Source: Spinellus fusiger
Lineage: Eukaryota > Mucoromycota > Mucoromycetes > Mucorales > Phycomycetaceae
Assembly (NCBI GenBank): GCA_025094145.1
Contig: JALLLS010000013.1
Coordinates: 248,001 to 312,000 of the forward strand
DNA: 64,000 nucleotides
Reading direction: 5' to 3'
Part shown: piece by piece, positions 6,493-57,610 of the stretch
Position numbering within the stretch: the first letter of the stretch is position 1
Layout: every line of letters begins with the position of its first letter
The notes under the pieces: model-generated
Database searches by the model: none
Told to the model about the DNA's origin: nothing
The model's input: only the letters and a program-made list of their open reading frames with translations
Position numbers and translations under genes: made by a program

Positions 6493-6690
6493 TAAGAAAT
6501 AATAATACTTGTAATAATACTTGTAATAATACTCACAATAATACTTGTAATAATAATCACAATAATACTCACAATAATAGTCACAATAATACTTGTAATA
6601 ATATTCATAATAATACTCACAATAATACTTGTAATAATACTCATAATAATATTCATAATAATACTCATAATAATACTTGTAATTATAACG
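6493..6690. repeat. Degenerate AATAATACT-type tandem array
   Basis: About 200 bp of AATAATACTTGT / AATAATACTCAC units lies between two divergent genes. It is followed at 6720-6800 by a pure polypyrimidine tract that ends in CTGTAAAG. The array accounts for the Tyr- and Ile-rich frames read across it. Confidence 0.9.
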
Positions 6691-6813
6691 ATAAGAATTC
6701 TCACCTATTCTTACTGTAGATACTTCTTTCTTCCTTTCTTTCTCTTTCTCTTTCTTTCTCTTTCTTTCTTTCTTTTTTTCTTTTCCTTTCTTTTCCTTCT
6801 TACTGTAAAGGAC

Positions 6814-12287: not shown

Positions 12288-14970
12288 TACACACCAGGAG
12301 ATTTTTCTGGCTTTTGGGCGGGGATATCTCCTTCCCTTTACGTCTAAAAATTTCTTACCTCTTATGGAACTGTGTTTAAAATCAAAAGGTCTGAAGTATC
12401 TAAATTATTATTTCCTTTTGTGGATATCTCAATATTAAATTGTATTATCAATAAAATATATTGTTTATGGATAAAATTGTTTATTATAATAGTATAGGTA
12501 ATACTATAGTATGACTATAGCTACTGCCCAAGTGTATTCCTTCATAGCAATAGAGTCTATACCCTAGAAGCCTTGTGCTTTATACTTGGAAGATAGATAA
12601 ATATGCTCAGGATTATACCATAGACAGCCTAGACACCTTAGACAGTATAGAAGGAAAAAGACCACCTGAGACTGACTTAAGAAAGAGTCTTAACTTATCT
12701 AATAACAGAAGAGTGTATTAGTAATAATTCAATCGAGAGAGATAGTATGCTTACCTTGTACTTCATACTTGTCTTGAGAATAATTATTCATATATCATCT
12801 ATTAGAAGAAGAGTCAGTACTATGTCTTGTGGATTACATTGAACTCAAGCCCAGATAAAGATACTGCTTACCTTTTTATCTCAAGAATAGAATTTGGTGG
12901 TGCCTATCACCTTTTATTGTTTCTCTTTGTTGATAATAGTACAATACCTTGCTTAGTTATGCCCATCTTAACAAGTACTTAAATATTAAGTTGTATGTGT
13001 AGTGTGAGAAATAACAGAATAATAACAGACCAGAGAATAGAAAATATTTTCATTCTGGTGAGGTATCACTTTAGCCTTTACTTTCCTATAATTAAGTCAA
13101 AATTCATAAGTTAGATTTACAAGTCAAACAATTCACACTCTATTTGCCTTGAGCCTAAAGCCCAGTATTATAAATAATACCTTGTTGTCATCAAGTACTA
13201 TTGTTAATACCAATTACAATAAGATAGTTACTGAAGTGATTATGAATATTGAGTCAATGAATGTCTATAATGCTCTTAATATAAGTAAGCTTGGTTCTAT
13301 TTTATGGACAATGACCACTAAAGTTAATTCCGTGTGAGTCCTACAATAAATCTTTCTTAAGCAGTGTCATACTGCAAAAAGTATGGGCTTATGGATAGCA
13401 CATGTTAAACATTAAATGCAGTGATTGAGTTACAATGTCAGTTTTGCTTCTTCCTTTTCTCCAACTTTATAGTGTTTAATTACACAGTCCATAGTCAATG
13501 CTAAGACAGACAGGCAGTGAAAAGGTTCTTTTCAAACACATTAGCCAACCAAAGAAATAATATTATTTCATTGTTCATGTATTTCCCTTTATATCCCAAA
13601 AATATTCTGTTGCTATGAGATAAGAGGCACGTAGGACCTCTTAAGACTGGTCACTCATACGGAGATTAAGAGAAAAGAGAAGGGTATGGAGTGACAGAAG
13701 GCAAACTTGTGATTGGAATAATAATGGCACCCTATGGGAATACAGAAAGAAAACAAGTCGAGAACAAGAAACAGTTAGCTACTCAAGTACTTAAAGCCTA
13801 TCTTAGTACAAAGGCTGGTCTAGGGAAATCAAAGAGGGTACATGAACAGGAACATAACATACAATTTGAGCACAACTGGTAACTAGGCAACTGTTCTTTA
13901 AGCAACTCTTTTCTTTCTAGAATGTTGTTGTAGTCTGCATTACTTTGGTAGTTCTGATTAAGCAAATGACTTGTGAAATTTCGTATTGTTCTCTTCTGTT
14001 CGGATATTAATATCTGCTAATTACACTGTCTGTTGTTCTTCATAACTTCTACCCTCTTTAACTTGTTTGTTTTTGTCTGGCATATAAACCAACAGTTGTG
14101 ATCTAGTGAGTATATGTTTATTATGTCTGACATGTTAGTCAGTTTCTATTGTATATTATTTTACTATAATAAACCCAGTGAATCTGTTACAAAGACAAAG
14201 GCAAGAAGGTGCTAGTACAAGGGTAATACGATACACACATAGAGTACGTTGATACATCTCGAACTAATTGTTTTTACTATTATTTTATTAGTGAAAAGGG
14301 GTATTAGCACCTAAAAGGATTGGAGTATGATCCTACCAAACTGCCTGTAATTGCTTATGGCACAGGAATGAAGGTAAAAGATGCTACCAAGTTTAAAGGT
14401 CATCGTGTTGATTTACTAAGAATTTTATATCAATCATTGAAAAAAAGAGACAAAAGAATGGTGATCTTCTTATGGTTGATGTTGATAAGTTCCGAACATC
14501 GAGGGTAAACATGATTGACTTCTCACCCAATATGAAAAGCTCTTCTAACAGCTACTCTTATTTTTGTTCTCAAGATCTTCCACACTTATAACAAAAAAAA
14601 CCTCACCGAGGTATTAGTGAATTTCAACAATATCCACACTTGCCAAAGTTGCGGAATTGTTTGGAACAGAGATGTGAATGCATCAAAGAATATTTATACA
14701 ATCACAGAAGAGGGTTTAAAGGGTCACTACAGACCAGTTCTATTCTTTTCTACATAATAGATATTTGTATTCATATTATATATCACCATATCCAAAGCGG
14801 TTTCCTCTGGGATTCAGATATTTACAGGTAAATCTACATAATAATATTTATTTAAAAACTAGCATGAATACATCTCAATTTATTTTTTCTCCTTTTCAAA
14901 TCAATGTCATTTCTTAAACAATTGTAGTCTGACTATTTCCTTTTATATCCTAAAGATCTCCTGGTGTGTA
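12288..14970 (+). mobile_element. Fanzor-type Tc1/mariner-like DNA transposon, copy A
   Basis: The element is bounded by TA dinucleotides and inverted ends: left TACACACCAGGAGAT, right ATCTCCTGGTGTGTA. The left terminal region continues TTTTTCTGGCTTTTGGGCGG and recurs at copies B, C, D and E. The first ~1.3 kb (to about 13600) aligns by eye along its length with copy B, including an internal copy of the right-end motif near 13531-13600. The last part carries the Fanzor C-terminal fragment. No transposase for its own mobility was recognised. It lies between the divergent TM9SF and MPDU1 genes and has no intact long ORF. Confidence 0.8.
14319..14745 (+). pseudogene. Fanzor (eukaryotic TnpB-like) nuclease, C-terminal fragment
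   Basis: Read across one frameshift near 14458 and stops further on, this fragment shows the C-terminal order of Fanzor/TnpB proteins. First comes a VIAYGTGMKVKD block with KFKGHR, next DKFRTSRV (the RuvC-adjacent D-[EK]-[FY]-[KR]-T-S motif). A zinc-ribbon half CQSCG and the RuvC-III signature VWNRDVNASKNI follow. The first zinc-ribbon cysteine pair expected just after TSRV is not visible (VNMID instead), another sign of decay. Fanzors are RNA-guided DNA endonucleases carried by eukaryotic transposons and viruses. This copy lacks the N-terminal wedge/REC and RuvC-I regions, so it should be inactive. The family call rests on motif order recognised by eye. Confidence 0.75.
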
Positions 14971-16846: not shown

Positions 16847-18276
16847 TACACCCAAAGATGTTTGGGATATAAAAGGAAATATCTTGAGAATGAAATTATA
16901 ATACTATTATGATTGGCTAATGTGTTTGAAAAGGCCTTTTCGACATCTGCCTATTTTAGCAATAGCTGTTGACTGCAATTAAACGCTGTAAAGTTGGATA
17001 TAAAAGGAAGAAGTAAAGCTATTATTAAAACACAGTTATTGAATCTATTGTTTAACATAATGTTATTATTAAGCCCACAATATTTGCAATATGACACTGC
17101 TTGGGAAAGATTTATTACAGAACCCATATTGAATTAATTCTAGTAGTCATTGTCCAAAAGAGAAAAGCGGATGTAATTGTATTAAGAACAGAGTAGCCAT
17201 TCATTGACTTAATATTCATAATCACCTCAACTATCTCATTGTAACTGGTATTAACAATAGTACTTAATGATAACAAGGTATTGTTTCTAATGTTGCCCTT
17301 TAGGTTCAAGGCAAATAGAGTGTGAATTGTTTGACTTGTGAATTTCATGAGTAGAAGCTAAAATGCATACATCACCAGGATAGAGACAAAATCATCATTT
17401 GTTTTGATATTCCCCTCCTTTTGTTATTTCTTACACTGTCCATACAATTTGATATTTATGTATTCGTCAAGATGAGCATAACTAATCAAGGTATTGTACT
17501 ATTATTAACAAAGAAAAACAATAGAAGAAAGTGATAGACACTACCAAAGGCTATTCTAGTGATAAATAGATAAACAGTATCTTTATCTGGGCTTGATATC
17601 ATTGTAATCCACAAGACACTCATTGTATTATTAAAAAATAAAGACTCCTTTCAAGTCAGTCCCAAGTAGTCTTCTATACTGTCAATACTGTCTAGGGTAT
17701 ATTACTAAGCATGTATATCTATCTCTCAAGATCAAATCACTAGACATTTAGGGTGTAGATTCTATTTCTATGAAGGAATGCACTTAGGCGGTGGTTATAG
17801 TCATAATATAGTATTAGCTATATTATTATGATAAACAATTTTTTTTTTACTGATAATGTCATAAAGACATCTTCTATCATTGGAACTATAACCCTTTGTT
17901 GGGAATGATAATTCCTACTACTAAGCTGAGAAGGAGATGCCATCGAGTAGTAAGGAACAATGATAGTTTATAGTATTCAATAACATACTCATGAAGCTAA
18001 ATACTATTAGTAGAAAAGTATAAAACATGTATAAATAATAAATAATAAACATCAGAGTTTAACTGTCTATTAACTGATAAGTTTTTCTTTGGACTAAAAG
18101 GCTATTGACGATAATAATACAATTTGATATTATGGTATTCCATAAAAAGAAATAATAGCTTGGACATCTGCAAGCCTTTAGATTTTAAACACAGTTCGAT
18201 AAGACTCGAGATCGAAAATATCACAAAAGGAAGGAGATATCACCGCCTAAAAGCCAGAAAAATCTCCTGGCGTGTA
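16847..18276 (-). mobile_element. Non-autonomous derivative of the Fanzor-type element, copy B
   Basis: Inverse orientation to copy A. The left end is TACACCCAAAGATGTTTGGG and the right end AAAATCTCCTGGCGTGTA, both at TA. It matches the first 1.3 kb of copy A along its length, including the conserved right-end motif GGCTAATGTGTTTGA (16915-16929). It has no Fanzor or transposase remnant and so behaves as a deletion derivative. A 260-bp MITE is inserted inside at about 17855-18118. Confidence 0.75.
17855..18118. mobile_element. ~260-bp MITE-like repeat, copy 1 (nested in copy B)
   Basis: This block interrupts sequence that is continuous in copies A and C (TTGTATTATCAATAAAA). Related blocks occur at 39912-40172 and 44206-44464 in reverse orientation. 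Ends carry GTCRTAAAGRC at one side and GTCAATAGCC/GTCGTCTTTGG at the other. No coding capacity. Confidence 0.6.
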
Positions 18277-22353: not shown

Positions 22354-23013
22354 TACACACCCAAAGATTTTTCTGGCTTTTAGGCGGTGATATTTCTTTC
22401 CTTTTACGTCCATCCCTAATTTTGCCCTTTTATGGAATTGTATTTAAAATCAAAAGGTCTGAAGTATCTAAATTATTATTTCCTTTTGTGGATATCTCAA
22501 TATTAAATTGTATTATCAATAAAACATATTGTTTATGAATAAAATTGTTTATTGTAATAGTATAGCTAATGATATAATGACTATAGCTACTGCCTAAGCA
22601 CACTCCTTCATAGCAATAGAATCTATACCCTAAAGTCCCTGTGTTTTATCCTTAGGAGATAGATAAATATGCTTAGGAGTATAATCTAGATAGTATTGAC
22701 CTTGTAGAAGACCACCTAAGACTGACTTGAAAGGAGTCTTTACTTGCCTAACAACAATACAATGAGTGCCTTGTGGAATACATTGAGCTCAAGCTCAGAT
22801 GAAGACACTGCTTACCTTTTTATCACTAAAACAGTCCTTGGTGGTGTCTATCATCTCCTTCTATTGTTTCTCTTTGTTAATAATAGCACATTACCTTGCT
22901 CAGTCATGCTCATCTTGAAGAGTATTCGGGTGTTAAGTTGTATGTGCAGTGCGGGAAATAACAAGATAATAACAAGACCAAAGAATAAAAAATATTCTTA
23001 TTCTGGTGAGGTA

Positions 23014-23478
23014 TACAGTCCCATACAATAAATGAGTGGACAGAAAATCAATTTTCTATTTCTATTTTACAACTTATTCAAACAATGATTCCAAACAATA
23101 GAAATCAGCCAACTCTTAAACAAGAACATGAAGATAGTCCCATCAAAAGAAGAGAGTATGCTATGTTCATTAGAAGTCAAATCACAGGACAATGGAAAAG
23201 ACATGTTACTTACCAAGAGATTGCTGATTATCTTGATATCCCAAAGAGCACAATGGGTAAGAGTGTCCTATTGTATAAAAACAAAGACTCTGTTACAAAG
23301 CACTGAGCAATATCTTTATAATAAAAATGTAGACAATCAGTTAAAGAAAAACTATTCCAAATCCCGTGTTATTCAATGAACCTTTTATTATGAACATCTT
23401 AGACTGATAGATGTATCTTTATTTTTCAAAAAAAAAAAAAAAAGAATTCTGTCCACTCACTTATTGTATGGGACTGTA
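23014..23478 (+). mobile_element. Nested Tc1-type element, internally deleted (465 bp)
   Basis: Perfect-looking ~28-bp terminal inverted repeats begin TACAGTCCCATACAATAAAT and end in the reverse complement (GTATGGGACTGTA) at TA. It keeps only the N-terminal helix-turn-helix coding part of its transposase. It sits at the same host-element site as the larger nested element in copy D. Confidence 0.85.
23085..23306 (+). pseudogene. Tc1 transposase, N-terminal HTH remnant
   Basis: About 70 residues remain, including ITGQWKRHVTYQEIADYLDI and PKSTMGK, a homeodomain-like Tc1 DNA-binding region. The catalytic DDE/D part is deleted. Its neighbour copy in element D continues into the catalytic region. 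Confidence 0.75.
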
Positions 23479-23655
23479 AATATGCATAGAAAACCGATGG
23501 AATTCACAGTTTCCATTGATAGATATACAAGTTTTATGCTTTGGCACAACTTCTTGGTTTTCAAATCACGGATTGAATCAATGCCATGTGAAAACCAATT
23601 ATAAAACAGAAATAGTATAAAAAGAAAAAGGTCAACTTGTCTTTTATCTTTTCTT

Positions 23656-24751
23656 CATGGAACCTGCTCTAAAGATTATAGCAGTGAAATGTTCAATCAC
23701 TGGTATTGGATGGAAACCGCAGTATCTTTTTTGTCGCTCAAGACACTTGTATCTACTGTCCGTATTATTGTAACGCATACATTCGCTTTTCTAAAGTACA
23801 TATTCATTCAAGAATTAGGAAATAACCCTGCCTTTGCTCTAGAGGATTTTGCCAATGTTGATTTTTACAGTGAAGTCTTTTTGTCGCTTCTTCAGAGTTA
23901 CAAGCCAAATAGACAAGCAAATTCTTCAAAGTCAAGAACCAACCGAGAACTTATCAACAGACATCGAGACATGTACTTTCAACACAGTCTATATGAGCCA
24001 GTCAGCTTAAAGTATACCCATCAAATAGCCATGTAGGAAGCAAGGAAAATAAATACAACATACCTCAATGGTATCTCATTACACTTTGGAAACAAGCTGT
24101 GCATGTTCTTAAACATACTTTTGAAGAAGAATGAACGAATAAAAACAGTAAAGGATGAAATGAAGAAGAAAGGCACCACAGAGATGGAAGTATCAGCTGC
24201 AGTAAAGGATATTGTTGAACAATGCAGTAGAATCAAAACAGTCATTTTGTCTGGAAGAAGATTTAGCAGCTAGTATCGGCAAGTGTGTATTGATTGAACC
24301 TGGTCGTCGTGATGTACTTTATTGTATGCATGAAGATAGCATTGTAGAAAACAAAAGAACATATCGATACACTAGCAATCAAAGTGCAATTGAAAACAAG
24401 TCAAGAAAGTTCAGGAAGCTCCGTGAGAACTTGAAGCCTGATGAAGTGAAAGCAGCTGAATTATCTCTGTCAGGAAATACATCTTCAACAGTCAATTGTG
24501 AAAGGTTTGCAAGATACCTTGAGGAGAGAGCCAGAGCCACCCCAATGTTGCATAATTATTATTCAAATAAAGGTGCTCCTGCTGTGGAAAAACATAATAT
24601 CAATAGCTTACTTTTATATCTTAGAATGAAGCTTTTGATCTTTATTAATCAACAACAATCAGACAAACGGTTAGCTATTAGTAGCCGATCCACTAATATA
24701 TATATAAGAATCCGGTGTAATTATCGCTGCACTACATCCAGATACACGTAA
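23656..24751 (+). pseudogene. Fanzor (TnpB-like) nuclease, N-terminal and middle fragment
   Basis: Frames change after ~23760 and again near 24240. In order it shows LKYIFIQELGNNPAFALEDF, a helical segment with INTTYLNGISLHFGNKL and LNILLKKNER, then GRRDVLYCMHED with YRYTSNQSAIE, then SGNTSSTVNCERFARYLEER and FINQQQSDKRLA. These match remembered fungal Fanzor1-like proteins in order. The reading stops before the RuvC catalytic core (no GNWSA-like, DEFRTS or NRDVNA motif here), so the gene is C-terminally truncated as well as frameshifted. It should not produce an active nuclease. Confidence 0.65.
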
Positions 24752-24975
24752 GTCTCTTTTGAACCATACTACATTTCTATACTATATTTTCCCCAAAGAT
24801 GCACCAATACTTTATGAAGATAGTGTAGCTATTGCTAGAATAGGCAGATAGAGTTTGAAACAGTTCATTCAGACAGCGAAAATACCTTTTTTAAACACAT
24901 TAGCCAATTAGAATAATAGTGTTATTTTATTGTCCGTGTATTTACTTTTATATCCCAAAAATCTGTAGGCGTGTA

Positions 24976-25465
24976 CTAAAGATACTATTATTATTAGTTA
25001 TTATTATTATTAGTGTTATTGTTAGTATCAGTATCAGTATCAGTATCAGTATCAGTATCAGTATCAGTATCAGTATCATTATCATTATCAGCATAAGCAT
25101 CAGTATCATTATCAGTATCAGTATCATTATCATTATCATCACTATGGGTAATTGCTATCAGTAATAATGTCTCCCAACACACACTACTAACACAATTACT
25201 TATTCACTACCACTGACCACTCACCGCATTAGCAGAAAGACACATTCCCCTTGCTTTGATCTAAAGGGAATAGGGTGATACACGCCAATCATTAATAAAA
25301 ACCATTTATGGTGTGCCTCTACAAAAGCTATAAGACAGCCCCAATGCATTCTATTATTTTATTTGAATTTTTCCTTCTTGTTATGCTTCTATTTATTTGC
25401 TTCTTTTCCTTCTTTCTTTCTCTTTGCTCCAATTTTTGTACTATTTGCCACGAATCTTATACTGT
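24976..25465. other. Spacer with microsatellite, promoter of the PWWP gene
   Basis: No gene. It holds the ATCAGT/ATTATC microsatellite at 25019-25141 and a pyrimidine-rich stretch before the PWWP start codon. Confidence 0.5.
25019..25141. repeat. (AGTATC)n / (ATTATC)n microsatellite
   Basis: At least eight perfect AGTATC hexamers, then mixed ATTATC/AGCATA units. It reads as Ile/Ser or Asp/Thr repeats on either strand and is not coding. Confidence 0.95.
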
Positions 25466-32452: not shown

Positions 32453-32542
32453 TACAGTGCTTCCAAAAAGCAATGTCGCTTTGCTTGAGATGATGTCATG
32501 TCACCATGATTTCTTGGTACTCGAAAAAATATAAAACAAGAC

Positions 32543-33105
32543 CGCATGTTTCTTGACAAATCTGCTTTTGATATAAACATTAAATGTTCAAGAGCTTGGT
32601 CCAAAAAAGGTACCTGTGCTATTGTTACCAGGCCTACTACAAGAGCAAACACAACGTCTATATTGGGTGCTATCTCTGCTGCAGGTTTGATCACGATTGG
32701 CATAAAAAACTAAGACCTGCCAAAAAGCAAAAGGTCAATGGGTATATAAACTCAGGGACTGTAACAGGCCACTACATTAGTTTCTTAAAAACGACTCTTG
32801 ATGAAATGAATAAAAATCCACATATGAAAGGTCACTATATAGTTATAGATAGTGCACCCATTCACACGAATAAAAACATAAAGAAATATATTGAGTACTG
32901 TGGTTATAAATGTGTGTATCTTCCCACTTACTCTCCTGAGCTTAACCCAATAGAACAACTCTGGGCAGTGGCAAAGAGTAAGGTTAAGTGCCACCTATTT
33001 TTGCAGAAAGACACTTTATCAAAAAAGAATCACAGAAGCCTGCAAAAGTGTAGAGAAAGGTCATCTCAATGGTTTTGTTTCGCCTTCTTACAAGTGTTGG
33101 GATAA
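32543..33105 (+). pseudogene. IS630/Tc1-type transposase, left arm
   Basis: The first catalytic Asp region (MFLDKSAFDINIK) and SKKGTCAIVTRPTTRAN lie in one frame. After a frameshift near 32700 the rest follows: GTVTGHYISFLKTTLDEMNK, then VIDSAPIHTNKN (second Asp) and YLPTYSPELNPIEQLW (third acidic residue). The N-terminal DNA-binding domain is missing. It belongs to the IS630-Tc1-mariner DDE family and is very probably inactive. Confidence 0.85.
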
Positions 33106-34411
33106 ATGTCATAACAAAATGTCCCTATAATGGCCAATATGGACTTCATTAAAAGCCAAACAATTAGGCCATAAGAATAAGGCAAGCAACAAACACAAAG
33201 CAAAAAAAAAAGGTTGGCAGCCAACTACACTTTTCTTTCACTCAATTCCCATCTATTATTTGATTGGGTTATGTGGCGGGTTATGTGGGTTATGTGGTGG
33301 GTTATGTGTGTGTTTTTTTTTTTTTTTTTGCAAACGCTCCTTATTGTGCATTTGTCCCCCTGATTTCTACCCATCCACTGTTCGGCTATTGTTCAGTTGA
33401 TGCTCAATTATTTTTATTTGGCAGAGGAAGTCCATTTCTGTTCAGTCTCACGAATTCAAAATGATTATCGCGTTTTTTCATCCATGCATCTTTGGACAAC
33501 CTTCCAAAGGTACTTCGGCAACCATAGCAAAAGTTTGTGAACCATATCAAATAAAAAAAAGAGAAGATAAAAGAGGTTGATGTCTGGCCAATATGTAAAA
33601 AACAAAGAGGCATTATATGCAGTGGTTATGATTCTTTATTACTATGATAATGGAATCTGGGAATAGCACTTGTGTAATATAAAGATTCACAGAGGAAAAA
33701 AAAACTTGAGTAAATAAAAAGAAAAGGGTAGAGTATAGTGTTCAGAAGGCAGAGGCAAAAGATGTGCTTGGAAAAATAGAAAGTATATTCTTCAACTTGT
33801 AAATGTTTGCTTCTATGCTTACTTATATACTATCTATTTTCCTATGAATATTCAGGGGCATGTATAGCCATCCTGTTTCTATAGTTTCTATATTAGTACA
33901 TGAAAACTTCTTGTGACAGTAAGAATACAGTGGGTCCTCATGCTTCAAGGGAAGCACCACCATATTTCCGACAATAGTAATGAAATAAATAAAATAACAG
34001 TCTTATGATTGATTAATGGTTATTTCGTTGAAGTGGGCATAAACGTTTTCGATCTTGAGATGAAGAGAATATTTGGTTAAAGCTTGATGTGTGTAAGGGA
34101 CCACAGATAACAGGTAGGAAAAGAGTACTAGGTGTTGTGCGTATAAGACAAGATATGGTAGATAGTATAGCTGATAGCAGATATCAGAATACAGAATTTA
34201 TTATGACAATTGGATAAGTATTTATACTGATTTCTCTAAGCTACTATCTAATTGCTAAGCAGAATATGTTTGTACGGAAATAAAGGAGTGTATAATCAGT
34301 GGCAGGGAAGTGATGAAAATAAAGGAGTGCATGATCAGTGACATAGGTTTGATGCGAAATAAAGGATTGGCGGGGAAAATTGAGAAATAAAGGAGTGTTC
34401 ATATTTGGTCA

Positions 34412-35608: not shown

Positions 35609-36510
35609 GGAATCATCATTGTTGGTGATCTGACGTTGTTGTTGATAATGATATGTTGCCGGTATTGTCTCTGGATTGTCTGAATAATAATGATTTTTTA
35701 GTTCATGTATGAGGGATTATTACTATCAAATATATCTGGTATACAGGTTATCCTAGATTATATGTTGTGATATTGTCTAAAAATATTATGTAAATAAATA
35801 TTGAGTTTTATGTCATAATTTTATATCTAATAATACAATAATAATACTTCAGATATAATGGAGTATATAGCAACATACCATCAACAGTTAAGATATACCA
35901 AAAGAGTTGGTGATATAATAGACATTCTAGCAATACACCAATTTATAGGTATTTGTATTAGCCTATTTCTAGATTGAAAAGCAAAATAACTGTATTAACA
36001 AGATGTATAATATATTCATTTAAAATACTTTGCATGTTTTAAATAGCAATTATTCCTCTATTATTGCATAATGTTGGAGACAAGCCGGACAGCCAAACTG
36101 CTCTTTGATAGAATCGTGTGCGGCAGATGTCTTAATGTAGGTAAAATTGTGGTTGTTGTGTTGTCAAACTTTTGTTCTCTCTGGAATTATAATATGCTGA
36201 ATTACTATGCTTCCTGAGCTATTGAGGTTGAATAAATGTCTTGTTGCATTCAAAGTAAGCATTTATAATTATGATGAGCTTGCCATCAAGTTTAACAATG
36301 AAAGAAGCAAAAAAAAAACACATAACCCACATAACCCGCCACATAACCCAATCAAATAATAGATGGGAATTGAGTGAAAGAAAAGTGTAGTTGGCTGCCA
36401 ACCTTTTTTTTTTTGCTTTGTGTTTGTTGCTTGCCTTATTCTTATGGCCTAATTGTTTGGCTTTTAATGAAGTCCATATTGGCCATTATAGGGACATTTT
36501 GTTATGACAT

Positions 36511-37078
36511 TTATCCCAACACTTGTAAGAAGGCGAAACAAAACCATTGAGATGACCTTTCTCTACACTTTTGCAGGCTTCTGTGATTCTTTTTTGATAA
36601 AGTGTCTTTCTGCAAAAATAGGTGGCACTTAACCTTACTCTTTGCCACTGCCCAGAGTTGTTCTATTGGGTTAAGCTCAGGAGAGTAAGTGGGAAGATAC
36701 ACACATTTATAACCACAGTACTCAATATATTTCTTTATGTTTTTATTCGTGTGAATGGGTGCACTATCTATAACTATATAGTGACCTTTCATATGTGGAT
36801 TTTTATTCATTTCATCAAGAGTCGTTTTTAAGAAACTAATGTAGTGGCCTGTTACAGTCCCTGAGTTTATATACCCATTGACCTTTTGCTTTTTGGCAGG
36901 TCTTAGTTTTTTATGCCAATCGTGATCAAACCTGCAGCAGAGATAGCACCCAATATAGACGTTGTGTTTGCTCTTGTAGTAGGCCTGGTAACAATAGCAC
37001 AGGTACCTTTTTTGGACCAAGCTCTTGAACATTTAATGTTTATATCAAAAGCAGATTTGTCAAGAAACATGCGGTCTT
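36511..37078 (-). pseudogene. IS630/Tc1-type transposase, right arm
   Basis: The reverse-oriented twin of the left-arm pseudogene. The inferred protein over 36511-37032 is identical to that of 32584-33105, including the same frameshift. Shared damage means the duplication (or gene conversion) came after the frameshift. Confidence 0.85.
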
Positions 37079-37420
37079 GTTTTATATTTTTTCGAGTACC
37101 AAGAAATCATGGTGACATGACATCATCTCAAGCAAAGCGACATGGTTTCCAAAAATATAACTTCCATTTCTGAAAATGTGAAATTGATTTTGATTGGTCG
37201 GCAATACTGCTATTGACTTGTCAGCGATATCAATTTTGATTGGCTGCAACATTGCTTTTTGGAAGCAATGTATATGCACACAAATGTTGATGTGTATCCG
37301 TATGTATGTATTCAGTCATGCGATTTTTTAATTACTTTCGGAAGTTTAGTTTATTATAAGCAATACAATGTTAGCTCTAAAGCACAGTGACTCATCCATT
37401 TAAACACTGGACAGGTTTCA

Positions 37421-40289: not shown

Positions 40290-40670
40290 AAGACTTATGT
40301 GTATCTTAGTTTAGTGCAGTGATAACTACACTGGATTCTTTTTTTGATGTTTTGGTGGATTGGATAATACTAGCTATATGTTTGTCTGATTGTTGTCGAA
40401 TAATAAAGATCAAAGGCTTCATTTTACTAAATTAGAGCAAAACATTGGCATTCCAGCTTTCCACAGCAGAAGTATCTTCATTTGAATAATAGTTATGCAG
40501 TACTGGGGTGACTCTGGCTCTTTCCTCGAGATATATTGCAAACATTTCGCAATTGACTGTTGAAAATATATGTCCTAACAAAGATAACCCCGTTTCTATC
40601 CAATACCAGTGATTGAACTTTTTACTGCAACAATCTTTAAAGCAAGCTTCATGAAGAAAAGATAAAAGAC
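40290..40670 (-). pseudogene. Fanzor fragment with large internal deletion
   Basis: Minus-strand reading starts with a MKLALKIVAVKSSITGIG block, then jumps to a region matching TVNCE..YLEERARVTPVLHNYYSN of copy C. The middle is deleted, with several stops. Its boundaries show an independent history from copy C despite a shared Tc1 insertion. Confidence 0.6.
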
Positions 40671-40825
40671 GAGTTGACCTTTTTCTTTTTATACTATTTC
40701 TGTTTTATAATTGGTTTTCACATGCCATTGAATCAATCCGTTATTTGAAAACTGTTGTGCTAAAGCATAAAGTTTGTATTTCTATCAATGGAAACTGTGA
40801 ATCCCACGGGTTTTCTATGCACATA

Positions 40826-42090
40826 TACAGTCCCAATTAATAAGTGAATGGACAGTAATTTTATTTTTTATTTTTTATTCTATTTTTATTTATTTTTTGA
40901 AAAATAAAGGTATATCTATCAGTCTAAGATGTTCATAATAAAATGTTTATGGAATAACATAAGATTTGGAATAGTTGTTCTTTAGATAACTGTCTAAAAT
41001 TTTATTAAAAAATATTGCTCAATACTTTGTAACAGAGCCTTTATTCTTCACCACAGTGGAGCACCTCCTTGGCATGCTATCCACTAAGTTTTCCATAAAT
41101 TCATTTGGCATCTTCTCCCACTCACTACGCAGACATCGTTCAATATGTTTTGCATTGGTTATACCTGTTTGATGTGGCTCGATCTTCTTTTCAAGATAAG
41201 CCCAGATATGCTCTTGTGTGACAAGGAGCACCGTCTTCTTGGAAGAACATGGTTTCATTGAGGTCCTCTTGTAATTTGTGGAACCAGAGAAGAAAGTATT
41301 TAGCAAGTACATTGGCCCACTTGTCTTGATTAACTGATCCCTCCAAGAATACAAGAGGTCCTACACCTCTACACAAAAGCCAACCCCAAACCATAGCTCA
41401 GTCCTTGCCATACTTGTATGTTTATTGTGTATGACGCTCCTCGTACCTTTTACCTTTCTTTCTAATCACTCTAGTTCTATTATTATTGCCCACAACTGTA
41501 AAACGGGACTCATCAGACCAAACGATGTTACTCCACCTCTCCACTGACCAATCAGCCTTGTTTTTACACCATTTCAGTCGTCTTTGTTTGTGAGTAAGTG
41601 TCATACCAGGTTGTCTTGATGGTGAGCATGAAAAAAACCTGAGTTTATTCATGTATTTTAGAAATGTGCTACGGCGAATATCCACGCCTGCATCATTCAT
41701 ATTTTTCAAATCATATGCAATTGTTTGTATAGGGTTTCTGCGAATAGACAAAATGATAGCCTGTTTTTAGGTAGATGACACCTTTTTAGTTCTTTTTCTA
41801 CACATTTTGGGTCGATTTGTGCCTTTGTTTTTATACAATTGAACACTCTTGCCCACTGTGCTCTTTGGGAGGTCAAAAGTGTCAGTAATCTCTTGATAAG
41901 TAGCATGTCTTTTTTATTGTCCTATGATTTGACCTTTAATAAACATAGCATGCCCTCTCCTTTTGATAGGACTATATGTTCTTGGCTAACATTTGGCTAA
42001 TTTTCATTGCTTGGTGTCATTTTTTTTAATAAGTTGTAAAATAAAAATAGAAAATAGCTTGTCGTTTACTCATTTTTGAATAAGACTGTA
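40826..42090 (-). mobile_element. Nested Tc1-type element, near full length (1265 bp)
   Basis: Ends TACAGTCCCAATTAATAAGT and the inverted TGAATAAGACTGTA at TA. It is inserted in the same host-element site as the 465-bp derivative in copy C and encodes a damaged transposase. Confidence 0.8.
41019..41920 (-). pseudogene. Tc1 transposase, frameshifted
   Basis: In several frames the reading gives a PKSTVG-like HTH remnant, then FSCSPSRQPGMTLTHKQRRL and WSNIVWSDESRF (first Asp). Next come VWGWLLCRGVGPLVFLEGSV, FFQEDGAPCHT (second Asp) and EHIWAYLEKKIEPHQ. The third catalytic SPDLNPIE-type stretch is missing, by a short deletion between CHT and EHIW. Inactive. Confidence 0.85.
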
Positions 42091-42862
42091 TACCTCACCA
42101 GAATAAGAATATTTTCTATTTTTTAGTCTTGTTACTATCTTGTTATTTCTTACACTGTCTATATAAATTGATACTTAGGCGCCTGTTGAGATGAGCATAA
42201 CTGAGCAAAGTGATGTGCTGTTATTAACAAATTAGAACAATAGAAGGAAGTGATAGACACCACCAAAGGCTATTTTAGAGGTAAAAAAGTAAGTAGTGTC
42301 ATCATCTGGTCTTGAGTTCATTGCAATCCGCAAGACATAATACTGACTCTTCTTCTAATAAATGATATATGGCCTGTTATTCTTAAGACAAGTATTAAGT
42401 GCAAGGTAAGCATACTATCTCTCTTGATTGAACTATTACTAATAAACTCTTTTATTATTAGGCAAGTTAAGGCTCTTTCTCAAGTCAGTCTCAGATTGTC
42501 TTCCTTCTATACTCTCTAGGGTGTCTAGGGTATACTCCTGAGCATATCTATCTATCTCCCAAGAATAAAGCATAAGGATTTTAGGGTATATATTCTATTG
42601 CTATGAGGGAATACACTTGGGCAGTAGCTATAGTCATACTATAGTATTAGCTATACTATTATAATAAACAATTTTATCCATCAACACTATATTTTACTGA
42701 TAATACAATTTGATAGTGAGGTATACTACAAAAGGAAATAATAATTTGGATATCCGCAAACCTTTTAATTTTGAACACAGTTCCATATAAGGTGCGTTTC
42801 TTCTTTTACGTAAAAGGAAGGAGATATCATCGCTTAAAGGCCAAAAAATCTTTGGGTGTGTA

Positions 42863-48033: not shown

Positions 48034-51000
48034 CTAAAGATCTCGCCATTTAACAAAAGACTTAACCGTGCGCGGCAGAATATTTAGACAATAGTCAATT
48101 GGATGAACGTCTTGTGGTGGTGCAGGAACTAGGAAGAACAAGAACGTAGAGCGTTCATGATCAACGAATGTGCATATAAGGAAGTGGTCCCTGTTAGCAG
48201 ATGGGTGGCCACATTGGCAAGGAACTGAAGGTGTTGGTGGTAACCAAGCAATCCTCCATTTTAGCAGACGATGTCTTTCTTTGCGCGTGCACGGTAGTAG
48301 AAGAATTGGATCCCAAACAGGTCTACATAGTCCACGGGCTACCGTCACCAGCGGATTCTTGCCACGTACTAGACTAGTAATTTCACTTTGAAGACGTTCA
48401 AGATAAGCTACTTTTAATGGATATTTAGGAGGGTTGTGAGCCCGTCCTATTCTTTGAGCATTTTGCCAGAGTACATTGCCACGTAGCTTAATCCATCTGG
48501 CTTTACTCTGGGGTGCTTCAAGCTGCGGGACAAGGCACCAGAGGAGGGTGTCTTCAGGAAGGGTAGCTGCGCGCTCAACAAATTTGGCTTGCAGATAAAG
48601 AAAACGAGAGTATATGTTAGGGAGGGCAGCTAATTGGGCAACCTGGATCGTTCCAAACCTAGCAGTAGCAGATCTAGCAAGACAAAGTCTCAGACAAGCA
48701 GACTGACAGATTTGTAGCGGGCGGATGCCTAGTCTATTGACATTACAAATAGCCAACCCATACTCAAGGATAGGCCGAACAAAAACAGTATACGCTCTTA
48801 GGGCTGCTGTAATCCCAAAGCCATACATGTTTACACCCATTCCTCTCAGCTTTTGCATTACTGCAATTGCCTTGACTTGTGAGTGTGAGAAAAGTGCGTC
48901 TTGGTTAATACCTTGACGTGAAAAGGGGATACCAAGGTACTTGAAAGTATCACAGGTTGGAAGCTCGTTGCCATAGAGGTAAAACGGCACATTGGCCGGG
49001 GCATTGAGTACTTCACATTTGGAGGGACTCCATTTGTAACCAAGGAGGGTCGAGTGAATTTCGGCAAGTGCCAGCATTCGATGTATATCTTCTGGGCAGC
49101 CCATAAGAGCCACATCATCAGCATACAACAAACAATTCACAGGAGCCCAAGTAACAGTGACATGAGACGGACTGTAAGAGGAATCTGACAACTCAGAAGA
49201 GTCATCCGAAACTGTAGAAGTAGGAAAAGGATTGTGAAGGGAATTCTGTAACTCGTCAAGCAATGCGTGAACAGTTGCCTGTGGGGAAGCAAAAGAGAAA
49301 GGATTTCGAGCACAGAGATTAATGGACCGTCCCATGGTAGGTGGGTGCATACCAACCAGTATTGGGGATACCGAAGCAAACCTCAAGAAACGTGGAAGAG
49401 TATCAATGAAAATAGAATAAAGAAATGGAGAAAGAATACTACCCTGTAAGACTCCTCGTTTAGGTGCAATGTCCCGGGATGCTACATTTTTCAGAATCAC
49501 ATTCACCACAATGTCATCAAACAAATTCTGTAGTAGCAAGAGCAACGGCTGAGACACGAAGGGCATCAGCGACTCCCATATGACAGAGCGTTCCACACTA
49601 TCATATGCAGCTTTAATATCTAGGAAGACGACGACTGGAGGTTTTGGATCTTGCTCTCCTGATCCTTGGGCAGCGTACAACCCCATAAGTTCGTGGAGAC
49701 AGAGGGCCTGGTCTAGAGTTCCACGACGAGCGCGAAATCCACCTTGAGCCATGTCCAATGCAGGCATGGTCGAAAGGAGCTCCCCAGCTATACATCTTTC
49801 TAAGAGCTTACGAAACACCGATGTCAAGCTAATAGGCCGATAGTTACTAGGGTCATCCTGCTCTCCTTTGTTTTTGTAAATAGGTACCACCTGTGCTGTT
49901 CTCCAGGCCACAGGCGTCCACGACCATCTCCAACACAATGTGAAGATCTGATGTAACAGAGGCACTAGCACTCGAACTAGGGGTTTGAGCATTTCTGCTC
50001 TAATATGATCAATGCCTGGTGCTTTTCGATTTGGCATCTTTCGAATAGCAGAGTGAATAAAGTCTACGTCCCATGGGACTGGATTGTCTTGGAGAGTAAA
50101 CTCCTGACGCTCCTGTCTTTCCGTAGATCCGCCAAACACTCTCTCTAGGTGGTCAATCATGCGATTGGCAGCATGCCGAGGGCCCTCTGGAGATGACAGG
50201 GAAATTGGCGAACGTCTCCGCAGCCTCATTCCTTTCACAGCACTTGTCATCTCTGTTAAGCCCTTACGGACTTTATCACAAAATACATGCCAGGTTTGTC
50301 GTTGTGCTTGCCTTATAGCCTTTTTCAAAGCTAAACACGCTTCCTCATACAAGCGGTGGGCTTCAATGCGTTCAATATCATTGCCTACCCGTCGTCTAAA
50401 ACGATAAAGTTCTTGACGACGGTCAGCTAACTGTTGTAGATCAGCATTCCAGTAGCTTTTCCAAGCTTTTGGATGGGATTGTGCGCGCCCTACGCTATCA
50501 TCCAGGGCCTTGTAGATTGACTCATTGAGTCTCTCAGCAAAGTCCTCCATCTTAACAGAGCACAACGGGGTTTTGTCTTCCAATATTTTTTGGATCTCTC
50601 TTTGCAGTTCACCTGTGTTCTCTGCAAAACATCGCTTGTACTGGTCACAGACTGTTTGTTTGTTTAAACGTTGCAGTCTCCAGAGGCGACGGACAGCTGT
50701 TTCTGTCATGAGCGGTGGCATGAGCACCGGCTGAAAGGACAGCTCACACAAGTGGTGGTCTGAACCTAACGTCAGATCGTCCCTAATGTGCAAGCACACT
50801 TCGGAGAAGTTGTAGCTTCTTGACAGGAACAGGTCAATAATGCTAGCAAACCGACGACCATCTGCTAGAATTCGCTCATATGTAGGCAAGCCAAATGCCA
50901 ACTCTGAGTTCCACAAGGTTAGATCCTGACGGCAGATCCAGTCTTCAAATCCCACATGTCTGTCGTTTATGCCATGATCTCCAGTCAGGCGGCCTAAACG

Positions 51001-51414
51001 TGTATTCAGGTCACCAAGGACGAGTGTGAAGTCGTCTATGGGTAGTGAATTCAACCTTTCCGCAGCCTCACTAGACGACAGCCTCGGAGGTAGGTACAGA
51101 CCATGGAGTGTATATGGGCCAATCCTACAGGAGACCACAAAAGGATTAGTAATTGGTAAGGAATGTACATGGTAAGGAAAGTCAGGACGAATAAAGAACG
51201 AAACTCCATCAAAACCTCGTCCAGCATCACCATGGGCTGTAGCATAGTTGTGTATTTGTATCCAGGGGCACCTCAACATTTGCATGTCTTTGGTCAGGAA
51301 AGTCTCTGTCACTAAAAGTATATCAATATCATTCTGCACACACACATTCAGAACGTTCACCAGTTTGGGCCTGATTCCACAAGCATTCAATAGACCAATC
51401 TTCAGTCTATTCAT
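48034..51414 (-). CDS. LINE ORF2: endonuclease-reverse transcriptase
   Basis: An intact 1126-aa frame. The N-terminal apurinic-like endonuclease includes IGLLNACGIR, VTETFL, LVLGDLNTRLG and the catalytic SDHHLCEL. The reverse transcriptase includes VVPIYKNKGEQDDPSNYRPI, VVFLDIKAAYDSVERSVIW, RGVLQGSILSPFLY and the active-site LLYADDVALMG. The C-terminal end has a CQCG..H....C cluster (near PCQCGHPSANRDHFLIC), typical of LINE cysteine motifs. It nicks target DNA and copies the element RNA at the cut. The start ATG overlaps the ORF1 stop in ATGA, suggesting termination-reinitiation. Confidence 0.95.
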   Translation of the reverse strand: MNRLKIGLLNACGIRPKLVNVLNVCVQNDIDILLVTETFLTKDMQMLRCPWIQIHNYATAHGDAGRGFDGVSFFIRPDFPYHVHSLPITNPFVVSCRIGPYTLHGLYLPPRLSSSEAAERLNSLPIDDFTLVLGDLNTRLGRLTGDHGINDRHVGFEDWICRQDLTLWNSELAFGLPTYERILADGRRFASIIDLFLSRSYNFSEVCLHIRDDLTLGSDHHLCELSFQPVLMPPLMTETAVRRLWRLQRLNKQTVCDQYKRCFAENTGELQREIQKILEDKTPLCSVKMEDFAERLNESIYKALDDSVGRAQSHPKAWKSYWNADLQQLADRRQELYRFRRRVGNDIERIEAHRLYEEACLALKKAIRQAQRQTWHVFCDKVRKGLTEMTSAVKGMRLRRRSPISLSSPEGPRHAANRMIDHLERVFGGSTERQERQEFTLQDNPVPWDVDFIHSAIRKMPNRKAPGIDHIRAEMLKPLVRVLVPLLHQIFTLCWRWSWTPVAWRTAQVVPIYKNKGEQDDPSNYRPISLTSVFRKLLERCIAGELLSTMPALDMAQGGFRARRGTLDQALCLHELMGLYAAQGSGEQDPKPPVVVFLDIKAAYDSVERSVIWESLMPFVSQPLLLLLQNLFDDIVVNVILKNVASRDIAPKRGVLQGSILSPFLYSIFIDTLPRFLRFASVSPILVGMHPPTMGRSINLCARNPFSFASPQATVHALLDELQNSLHNPFPTSTVSDDSSELSDSSYSPSHVTVTWAPVNCLLYADDVALMGCPEDIHRMLALAEIHSTLLGYKWSPSKCEVLNAPANVPFYLYGNELPTCDTFKYLGIPFSRQGINQDALFSHSQVKAIAVMQKLRGMGVNMYGFGITAALRAYTVFVRPILEYGLAICNVNRLGIRPLQICQSACLRLCLARSATARFGTIQVAQLAALPNIYSRFLYLQAKFVERAATLPEDTLLWCLVPQLEAPQSKARWIKLRGNVLWQNAQRIGRAHNPPKYPLKVAYLERLQSEITSLVRGKNPLVTVARGLCRPVWDPILLLPCTRKERHRLLKWRIAWLPPTPSVPCQCGHPSANRDHFLICTFVDHERSTFLFFLVPAPPQDVHPIDYCLNILPRTVKSFVKWRDL

Positions 51415-52355
51415 AATTCTTCTCGGTGGATGTTTTGGGCGTCTCCCTCATCTTCTTCCATAGCTGAGCCTGATCCAAATGCCTGGATGGCCTCTTCTTC
51501 AAGGGTGGCGGGGCGGCTGGCAACTGGGGTCTTGGCCTTGAGATCCGCCAAGAGCTTCTCAAAGGCAGTGGCAGAGAGGCGGGGAGTGGCATTACCAGAG
51601 CCAAAGTGGCGAGCAATGCTGTACCCTAAGTGGGTGGGGGAACGAAGACAGGTGTTTGACACTCTCTGGTCAAAGAGTTCCTGGGCCTTTGCAGCCTTGG
51701 TACTGTTGGTTTCCCCTTGGAGCTTTGGGTCTGCAATGACTGCAGCGGACACAGGGTTGAAGTCCTTCACTGAACTGATCTTAAGCTTCTCGAGGTGCTC
51801 CTCGAGTTCCTTCTTGTAGCTGCTGTGGACCAGCAGCGCAACTATTCCCCTTGCCGGGAAGTGGATGTCAATGATCCGTGACTGTTGGATCTTCAACGAT
51901 CCCAACATCTTGCGGACCTGGCCGTACTTAAGGTATCGGCGGCAAGGGACGTATACGAATTCGTACACTGAGGGTCCAGTGGGCTCCTGCAAGGCACGTA
52001 CTGCTTGTGCCTTAAGCACTGCTTTGGCCTTTGTAGGCTTCTTGGCCTGGGGGTTCTTCTTTGCCATGCTGGCGTAGGTGGTGGGTGTGGGTGTGGGTGT
52101 GGAGGTTGGGGCATGCTTTGAAGCAGCAGTCGAGTTGTCCTGCTTGGCAGGGGTGGCAGGGGTGGCAGTGGTGGTGGTGTTGGTGGTGCTGGTAGTGGCC
52201 TGAGCCTGGAGGGATGCAATCATTGCATCCTTGGCCTTCAATTGGGCCTCCAATTCCTGGATACGGAGTCCAAAGATCTCCATCTGTTTTTGGATTGCCG
52301 CCATCATCTGCAGCATTTGTTGGGCGTGGGTGTCGGCCTTTTCCACCTCGGACAT
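51411..52355 (-). CDS. LINE ORF1: coiled-coil RNA-binding protein
   Basis: An intact 314-aa frame directly upstream of ORF2. Residues ~1-55 form a coiled coil (heptad-like MLQMMAAIQKQMEIFGLRIQ), then a Thr/Ala/Pro-rich linker, then a basic region AKKNPQAKKPTKAKAVLKAQ. A mixed alpha/beta domain follows (around VYEFVYVPCRRYLKYGQVRK), plausibly RRM-like. This layout matches ORF1 proteins that coat LINE RNA. No CCHC knuckles were seen. Confidence 0.85.
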   Translation of the reverse strand: MSEVEKADTHAQQMLQMMAAIQKQMEIFGLRIQELEAQLKAKDAMIASLQAQATTSTTNTTTTATPATPAKQDNSTAASKHAPTSTPTPTPTTYASMAKKNPQAKKPTKAKAVLKAQAVRALQEPTGPSVYEFVYVPCRRYLKYGQVRKMLGSLKIQQSRIIDIHFPARGIVALLVHSSYKKELEEHLEKLKISSVKDFNPVSAAVIADPKLQGETNSTKAAKAQELFDQRVSNTCLRSPTHLGYSIARHFGSGNATPRLSATAFEKLLADLKAKTPVASRPATLEEEAIQAFGSGSAMEEDEGDAQNIHREEL

Positions 52356-56984: not shown

Positions 56985-56988
56985 AGTA

Positions 56989-57070
<82 letters not shown>
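56985..57070. repeat. (AAT)n microsatellite
   Basis: More than 25 near-perfect AAT triplets. It explains poly-Asn, poly-Leu and poly-Tyr readings in neighbouring frames, which are not genes. Confidence 0.97.
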
Positions 57071-57075
<5 letters not shown>

Positions 57076-57610
57076 AGAAGTAGTAATAATAATAAAACAA
57101 GAATAATAAATAAATAAATAAATAGCTGGTGAGGTTAGATTGAAGAAATACATTGTAAAGTGAAGAGTTACTGGTGTAAGGTAGAAGCTGCTCTTAGATA
57201 ACAATTGCCTTTTTATTAGACTACCTTGTGCTAACCTACCCCAACCAAATAAAAGTAAGATGGTGTACCCTTTGTGACTACCCATTAAAGAGGATAGTAC
57301 ACGTTGGATCTCTCTTGCATGGTGTAGCTGCAGGAAAAAGATAAAGCAAAGATATGTGTCAATGATATTATTTTATTTCAGAGCCATTATCATGGTTACT
57401 ATACTAGATTGATTATTCTATCATAACACTTTTGTTTGTTTGATCTAATGATTGTACATAGCCCTGATGGTTGGTTAGGTGGATGATTTGTAGTATCGAA
57501 AATGAATGGGATATTATTGCAATTAATAAAGTCCTTTTGCCAAAGGATGTAAAAGATAGTGTTGATATGATATGCCTGAATTATAGTTGAAGTAGAGTTG
57601 AAGCTGGCTA
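57071..57610. other. Spacer, 3' flank of the Rho gene
   Basis: No gene recognised; a minus-strand frame continuing past the Rho stop (57399-57701) is a different reading and not used. Confidence 0.5.

Follow-up and report, generated by a model that had tools for sequence, protein, structure and literature searches.

Organization of the locus

The stretch of DNA considered here (the window: 64,000 nucleotides of a Spinellus fusiger contig) holds at 12290-14968, on the + strand, a TA-inserting and non-autonomous transposon that carries the remnant of a Fanzor gene and that we call element A; it was delimited by its terminal inverted repeats (TIRs), by the adjoining TA and by comparison with related copies. 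The left TIR (CACACCAGGAGAT, 12290-12302, + strand) and the right TIR (14956-14968, - strand) match perfectly over 13 bp, and a TA target-site duplication stands outside each, at 12288-12289 on the left and 14969-14970 on the right. An earlier note on this DNA had proposed a TA-flanked element at 12288-14970, and these boundaries hold. Across loci L001-L028, which include the window copy itself (L001) and a pair that is 99.98% identical over 5.6 kb (L002 and L003), TA also stands 3' of the right end in all but L018 and L024, hence in 26 of the 28. TA duplication and TIRs, the criterion for the Tc1/mariner superfamily, are thus both present, and it is these two features only that suggest a Tc1/mariner affiliation for element A; no transposase match was found within it.

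Several parts can be told apart in element A. Its left arm (12290-13066, + strand), outlined by blastn alignments that stop at q781, is common to Fanzor1-bearing sister elements and ends at a TA, which is the position of a nested Tc1 in those elements. Because alignments halt at q781 in occupied copies and extend to q826 in others, element A appears to preserve this site unoccupied, free of the Tc1. Farther in, repeat comparison reveals the fossil of a sister-element right end (13511-13606, + strand; q1226-1321), and given this internal end element A is a composite. Its right half (13807-14968, + strand), recognized in a whole-element DNA search, is common to many copies; in a short form of ~1.28 kb (element bases 1-114 plus 1520-2683) it is joined to a left end of 114 bp.

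Elsewhere in the window, a non-LTR retrotransposon occupies 48034-52355 on the - strand, with overlapping open frames of 314 and 1126 aa, the longer of which encodes endonuclease and reverse-transcriptase domains and is uninterrupted. Two inverted arms (32468-33296 and 36319-37148), made of 744- and 95-nt pieces that are 100% complementary, lie about 3.0-3.2 kb apart; each bears the same 173-aa frame, which matched DDE_3 in the one arm tested, and a 398-aa frame between them has no Pfam match. Long simple-repeat stretches are found at 6499-6701, 24978-25150 and 56986-57090.

A nuclease C-terminus split by a predicted intron

By Pfam search, 14320-14757 encodes a TnpB/Fanzor C-terminus (PF07282, 30.2 bits, E 5e-7), in agreement with the earlier note; the last piece of the block suffices for the match, scoring 30.2-30.8 bits alone against a cut-off of 26.3. 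The two earlier pieces of the block, each alone, matched no Pfam family. The four motifs that had first drawn attention, KFKGHR, DKFRTSRV, CQSCG and WNRDVNASKNI, are all present in that order at 14319-14745; DKFRTSRV is read in frame 14202+3k and the other three in frame 14200+3k. Two coding blocks on the + strand account for them. The penultimate block (14320-14504, its 5' limit putative; LEYDPTKL...FRTSR), defined by translation and alignment, is frameshifted in an A-run, and the last exon (14575-14757; PF07282, 30.8 bits) comprises the zinc ribbon and the RuvC-III WNRD and runs to the stop codon.

Between the two lies a predicted phase-0 intron of 70 nt (14505-14574, + strand; GTAAAC...CTAAC...CTCAAG), whose signals are kept across 38 aligned copies: every copy has the acceptor AG and the branch point (CTAAC or TTAAC), and 32 have the GT donor. 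The predicted intron varies from 70 to 81 nt; by its length the copies divide over the three phases as 24, 7 and 7, and the spliced frame leads into the zinc ribbon despite this variation. Joining the exons yields FRTSR-ICHTC...CQSCGIVWNRD, which fits the published TnpB/Fanzor motif [TS][TS]-X-X-[C4]-X(5,50)-RD (PMC3627910). Copies such as L019, L025 and L027, which retain the GT donor, satisfy this motif once joined. Joining lifts the PF07282 score of the window copy from 30.8 to 39.2 bits, that of L025 from 30.8 to 49.2 and that of L011 from 34.3 to 50.9, the last being among the six copies that have no GT donor; joined L019 scores 49.9. The shift of frame that separates FRTSR from the zinc ribbon is therefore better explained by the predicted intron than by a lesion.

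The decay claimed in the earlier note is borne out with one amendment: the second of the two frame changes is probably the predicted intron, so that part of the decay would be apparent, but the A-run frameshift and the lost cysteines stand. The first cysteine pair of the window copy has been lost (FHTY) while the second (CQSC) is kept, which leaves F and Y at two of the four cysteine positions of the published motif. Ahead of NGDLL the frame shifts at the A-run of exon 1, and this shift is a lesion; a stop codon lies shortly upstream. For these reasons the window copy is dead, with two of four ribbon cysteines gone, exon 1 frameshifted and no upstream catalytic domain found; the element in the window holds a nuclease fragment, not a nuclease.

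Could the block belong to an unrelated zinc-ribbon family that merely resembles TnpB/Fanzor? Weak matches below cut-off to zf-C2H2_3, ADK_lid and others might hint at this, but the joined exons exceed the PF07282 cut-off by a wide margin in the window copy as in L025, L019 and L011 (49.2-50.9 bits in the latter three), and joined L019 also matches the TnpB models guided_TnpB (E 2.5e-8) and IS607_TnpB (E 2.2e-7), though short of the full-length cut-off of either model, as well as solved TnpB-like and Cas12-like chains. Profile searches thus refute such a family, and we consider it scarcely credible.

Comparison with solved chains also bears on the clade of this TnpB/Fanzor block (hereafter the A-block). 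The last exon alone retrieved a Cas12m chain first (E 1.1e-4) and mimivirus TnpB-like L79 second (E 0.0022); joining the exons moved L79 to first place (E 5e-5) among matches that are mainly TnpB-like or Cas12-like nucleases. We take L79 to be a Fanzor2, and the L79 and TnpB-model matches together lean towards Fanzor2 for the A-block.

Search for the upstream part and for intact relatives

The earlier note took the nuclease to be truncated, and this agrees with the lack of upstream Fanzor1 homology in 32 A-type loci (tblastn, two Fanzor1 queries, E up to 0.1), a search in which a divergent N-terminus of the A-block gene might be overlooked. Most of these loci, among which L001 is the window copy and L002 and L003 are near-identical, hold ~1.5 kb upstream of the ribbon. 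The same Fanzor1 tblastn of the 32 loci gave no catalytic D of RuvC-I at 125-275 residues upstream.

Family models were also run on the genome. None of 41 scored candidates matched IS607_TnpB at E 0.001, a weak test in that the model also missed known A-blocks. A single match to TIGR01766, below cut-off, was rejected as an A-type relative because it falls in an open frame that presumably encodes methionine aminopeptidase. Among viral contigs, 21 stretches matched a pattern and none was confirmed as an A-block relative; phage records likewise gave none. As to the intact relatives foreseen in the earlier note, none of the A-block lineage was found in the genome with these rather insensitive family-model searches, but Fanzor1 genes with long open frames, of a different lineage, do occur.

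Abundance of the element

The genome searched comprises 38.08 Mb in 197 contigs. A 30-mer from the right end has 625 matches in it and a 24-mer from the left end 701 (each with at most 3 mismatches), while the reversed control patterns have 0; the sister-type right end has 506, which may overlap slightly with the 625. For the C-terminal block there are 643 candidates, and all 150 that were scored matched at 72% identity or more; a PF07282 profile search gave 457 candidates, with 147 of the 150 scored above cut-off. The block also recurs as DNA (42 matching stretches from 40 scored of 684 candidates), which, with the PF07282 match above cut-off, speaks against a chance resemblance. Searching the genome with the DNA of the whole element, as the earlier note had advised, turned up further copies: among 40 scored of 1780 candidates, about ten are near-complete, the window's included, and many are of the ~1.28-kb short form. 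Copies of the remnant-bearing transposon number at least 150 and probably several hundred. The 5.6 kb shared by L002 (contig C143) and L003 (C85) is probably a duplicated or redundant assembly segment, and copy counts may be slightly inflated.

Sister elements and the nested Tc1

Three further elements with related ends lie in the window. At 22356-24973 (+ strand; alignment and tblastn), sister element C carries, between related ends flanked by TA, a decayed Fanzor1 gene whose RuvC-I region remains at 24212-24751 (+ strand); phmmer places this remnant with Fanzor1, at E 1.5e-22 to the solved Parasitella parasitica protein (9cf0) and 8.9e-10 to 8gkh. Sister element D (40357-42860, - strand; alignments) combines a related left end, a Fanzor1 remnant and a nested Tc1 (about 40826-42090), of which a Tc1-family transposase remnant is recognizable at 41019-41751 (- strand; PF01498); no right end was found for it. 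Element B (16849-18274, - strand; alignments) has related ends and no Fanzor match in the tblastn of the window.

Elsewhere in the genome, Fanzor1 frames of 479-663 residues remain open. The longest, in L059 (663 residues), matches Parasitella parasitica Fanzor1 (9cf0) at E 4.1e-159 and has a frame change near its C-terminus; no CACACC-type ends were found around it in the 5-kb piece examined. A frame of 479 residues in L060 (contig C110) lies between related ends, the right at C110:204201 and the left at C110:208106. Elements with related ends thus appear to carry two distinct nuclease lineages, Fanzor1 and the A-block, in one genome.

A Tc1 transposase within sister elements might be thought to be their own. 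A compact Tc1 element at L076:703-2087 has its own inverted ends and an open 364-aa DDE transposase, a Tc1 relative that matches PF13358 above cut-off and an IS630 model below it; decayed relatives are nested in Fanzor1 elements. The Tc1 ends (CAGTCCCACGTAATAAG) differ from the CACACC ends, and the Tc1 was rejected as the sister elements' own transposase. Because the relative in L076 has different ends in a compact element, we take the Tc1 of the sister elements to be nested, its ends being of another kind. Among the best 150 Fanzor1 and best 150 Tc1 matches, 11 of the Fanzor1 matches lie no more than 3 kb from a Tc1 match, with both on one strand in 8 cases, where chance predicts about 3.5 pairs in either orientation; this proximity fits nesting as well as shared coding. 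The Tc1/mariner carriage that had been suggested thus keeps its footing in the TA duplication and inverted ends, but not in the Tc1 of the sister elements, which reads as nested, with its own ends.

Divergence among copies and what the remnant might still do

Besides the window copy, the 38-copy alignment takes in 37 other loci, each with one BLAST piece that runs across the block. Of 39 loci that satisfied this filter, two were removed, one because it was the window copy again and the other because it was an exact duplicate; loci in split pieces were left out. It is a non-random sample, many copies having entered through the best PF07282 or DNA scores. Copies diverge from the majority sequence by 0.084 in coding sequence, 0.071 in the intron, 0.056 in the 5' part and 0.068 in the 3' part, so exon and intron are about equal and evolution is near-neutral. 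Divergence by codon position is 0.077/0.075/0.099, a borderline third-position excess (permutation p 0.052) that may reflect weak past constraint on source copies.

Such an excess would also fit a short protein, made by the two last exons and under selection, such as a zinc ribbon that binds DNA and either regulates transposition or acts as a block to the full nuclease. The frame is uninterrupted through both exons in 11 of the 38 copies, and in 5 of these (L013, L015, L016, L019, L027) all four cysteines are present as well. However, the remaining 27 copies are not open across both exons, exon 2 has no third-position excess (0.078/0.092/0.079), and the first cysteine pair is gone in 21, all four cysteines being retained in 17; the exon-1 frame is kept in 15, the window copy not among them. 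We therefore hold a selected short protein to be very unlikely.

The retained DNA could instead matter as RNA: a Fanzor guide RNA might be encoded by the gene's 3' end together with the right end of the element, and the copies would then provide guides alone and depend in trans on an intact Fanzor. TnpB/Fanzor guide RNAs lie on the right (3') side, and of the two sides this is the one better preserved in the short form (about 1165 bp, against 114 bp on the left). Against this, the 228-nt 3' region of the window copy folds no better than shuffled sequence (z +1.21; 175 of 200 shuffles fold as well or better), compensatory change is seen in 1 of 20 consensus pairs across 31 copies, Rfam gives no match up to E 1, and divergence of the 3' part falls between that of the 5' part and that of the intron. 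Nothing here supports a guide RNA, and one could still exist in the face of the fold, covariation and Rfam negatives; we rate the idea as highly improbable.

Mobility and proposed history

One pair of copies speaks to how the family has spread. L006 and L007 share 99.2% identity across 2563 bp ending at the element ends, and their flanks do not match each other at E 1e-20; both have a TAA within the block and neither keeps the exon-1 frame. As judged from sequence, these related composite units moved as a whole. Since they share a lesion and are near-identical between their ends, with different flanks, fragments that were already broken have transposed, and the movement of dead fragments therefore presumably required a transposase in trans.

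Very probably, then, element A is an inverted-repeat transposon that inserts at TA, is non-autonomous and has as its cargo, now a passenger, the final coding blocks of a TnpB/Fanzor gene. Its history can be envisioned as beginning with a full element that had a complete Fanzor-type gene; a deletion inside it would have spared both ends and the 3' part of that gene, and a DDE transposase with its gene at another site may then have recognized the CACACC ends and moved the remnants by cut and paste, so that the fragment today would be a passenger with no nuclease function.

A dead Fanzor fragment, it appears, can spread far once it rides active transposon ends. What look like frameshifts in the TnpB-like genes of eukaryotes may be zinc-ribbon introns, and given such introns, counts of "intact" Fanzor genes from raw open frames can be underestimates. 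The long-open Fanzor1 genes of this genome, at least one of them between related ends (L060), are places to seek natural guide RNAs.

Comparison with known systems

MITE-like elements are internally deleted DNA transposons, and like them the short form keeps both ends and lacks the middle; unlike them it is strongly asymmetric, with ~1.17 kb including the exon remnants on the right. Within this genome, L059 and the element C remnant are close to Parasitella parasitica Fanzor1 (PDB 9cf0), whereas the A-block falls outside that lineage so far as two queries against 32 loci at E 0.1 can tell. PF07282 scores point the same way (49.9 bits for the A-block, 16.4 for L059), in an uneven contrast, the L059 query having no last exon.

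The A-block resembles IS607-type TnpB/Fanzor2 (L79, PDB 9b0l) in its best solved-structure match. Fanzor2 elements with a recombinase are described in PMC3627910 as IS607-like with neither TIR nor target-site duplication, whereas the A-block sits inside an element with TIRs and TA. That paper places compact TnpB/Fanzor2-like nucleases only in IS607-type elements without inverted repeats. It is conceivable, if rather doubtful, that a single family of mariner-like ends captured two lineages in this genome, Fanzor1 and a compact TnpB/Fanzor2-like nuclease, and that the last exons of the latter, split within the zinc ribbon by a spliceosomal intron, were then multiplied into hundreds of copies.

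Mariner-type Fanzor elements as such are already known: Bao and Jurka (2013, PMC3627910) place Fanzor1 in Mariner elements with TA duplications, some with no transposase. Element A shares with those Fanzor1 Tc/mariner elements the TA duplications, the TIRs and a TnpB-like passenger. It differs from them in that here a 3' fragment alone has been amplified (at least 150 scored copies) and related ends carry two nuclease lineages in one genome; copy number, the predicted intron and the two lineages on related ends are what set the element A family apart.
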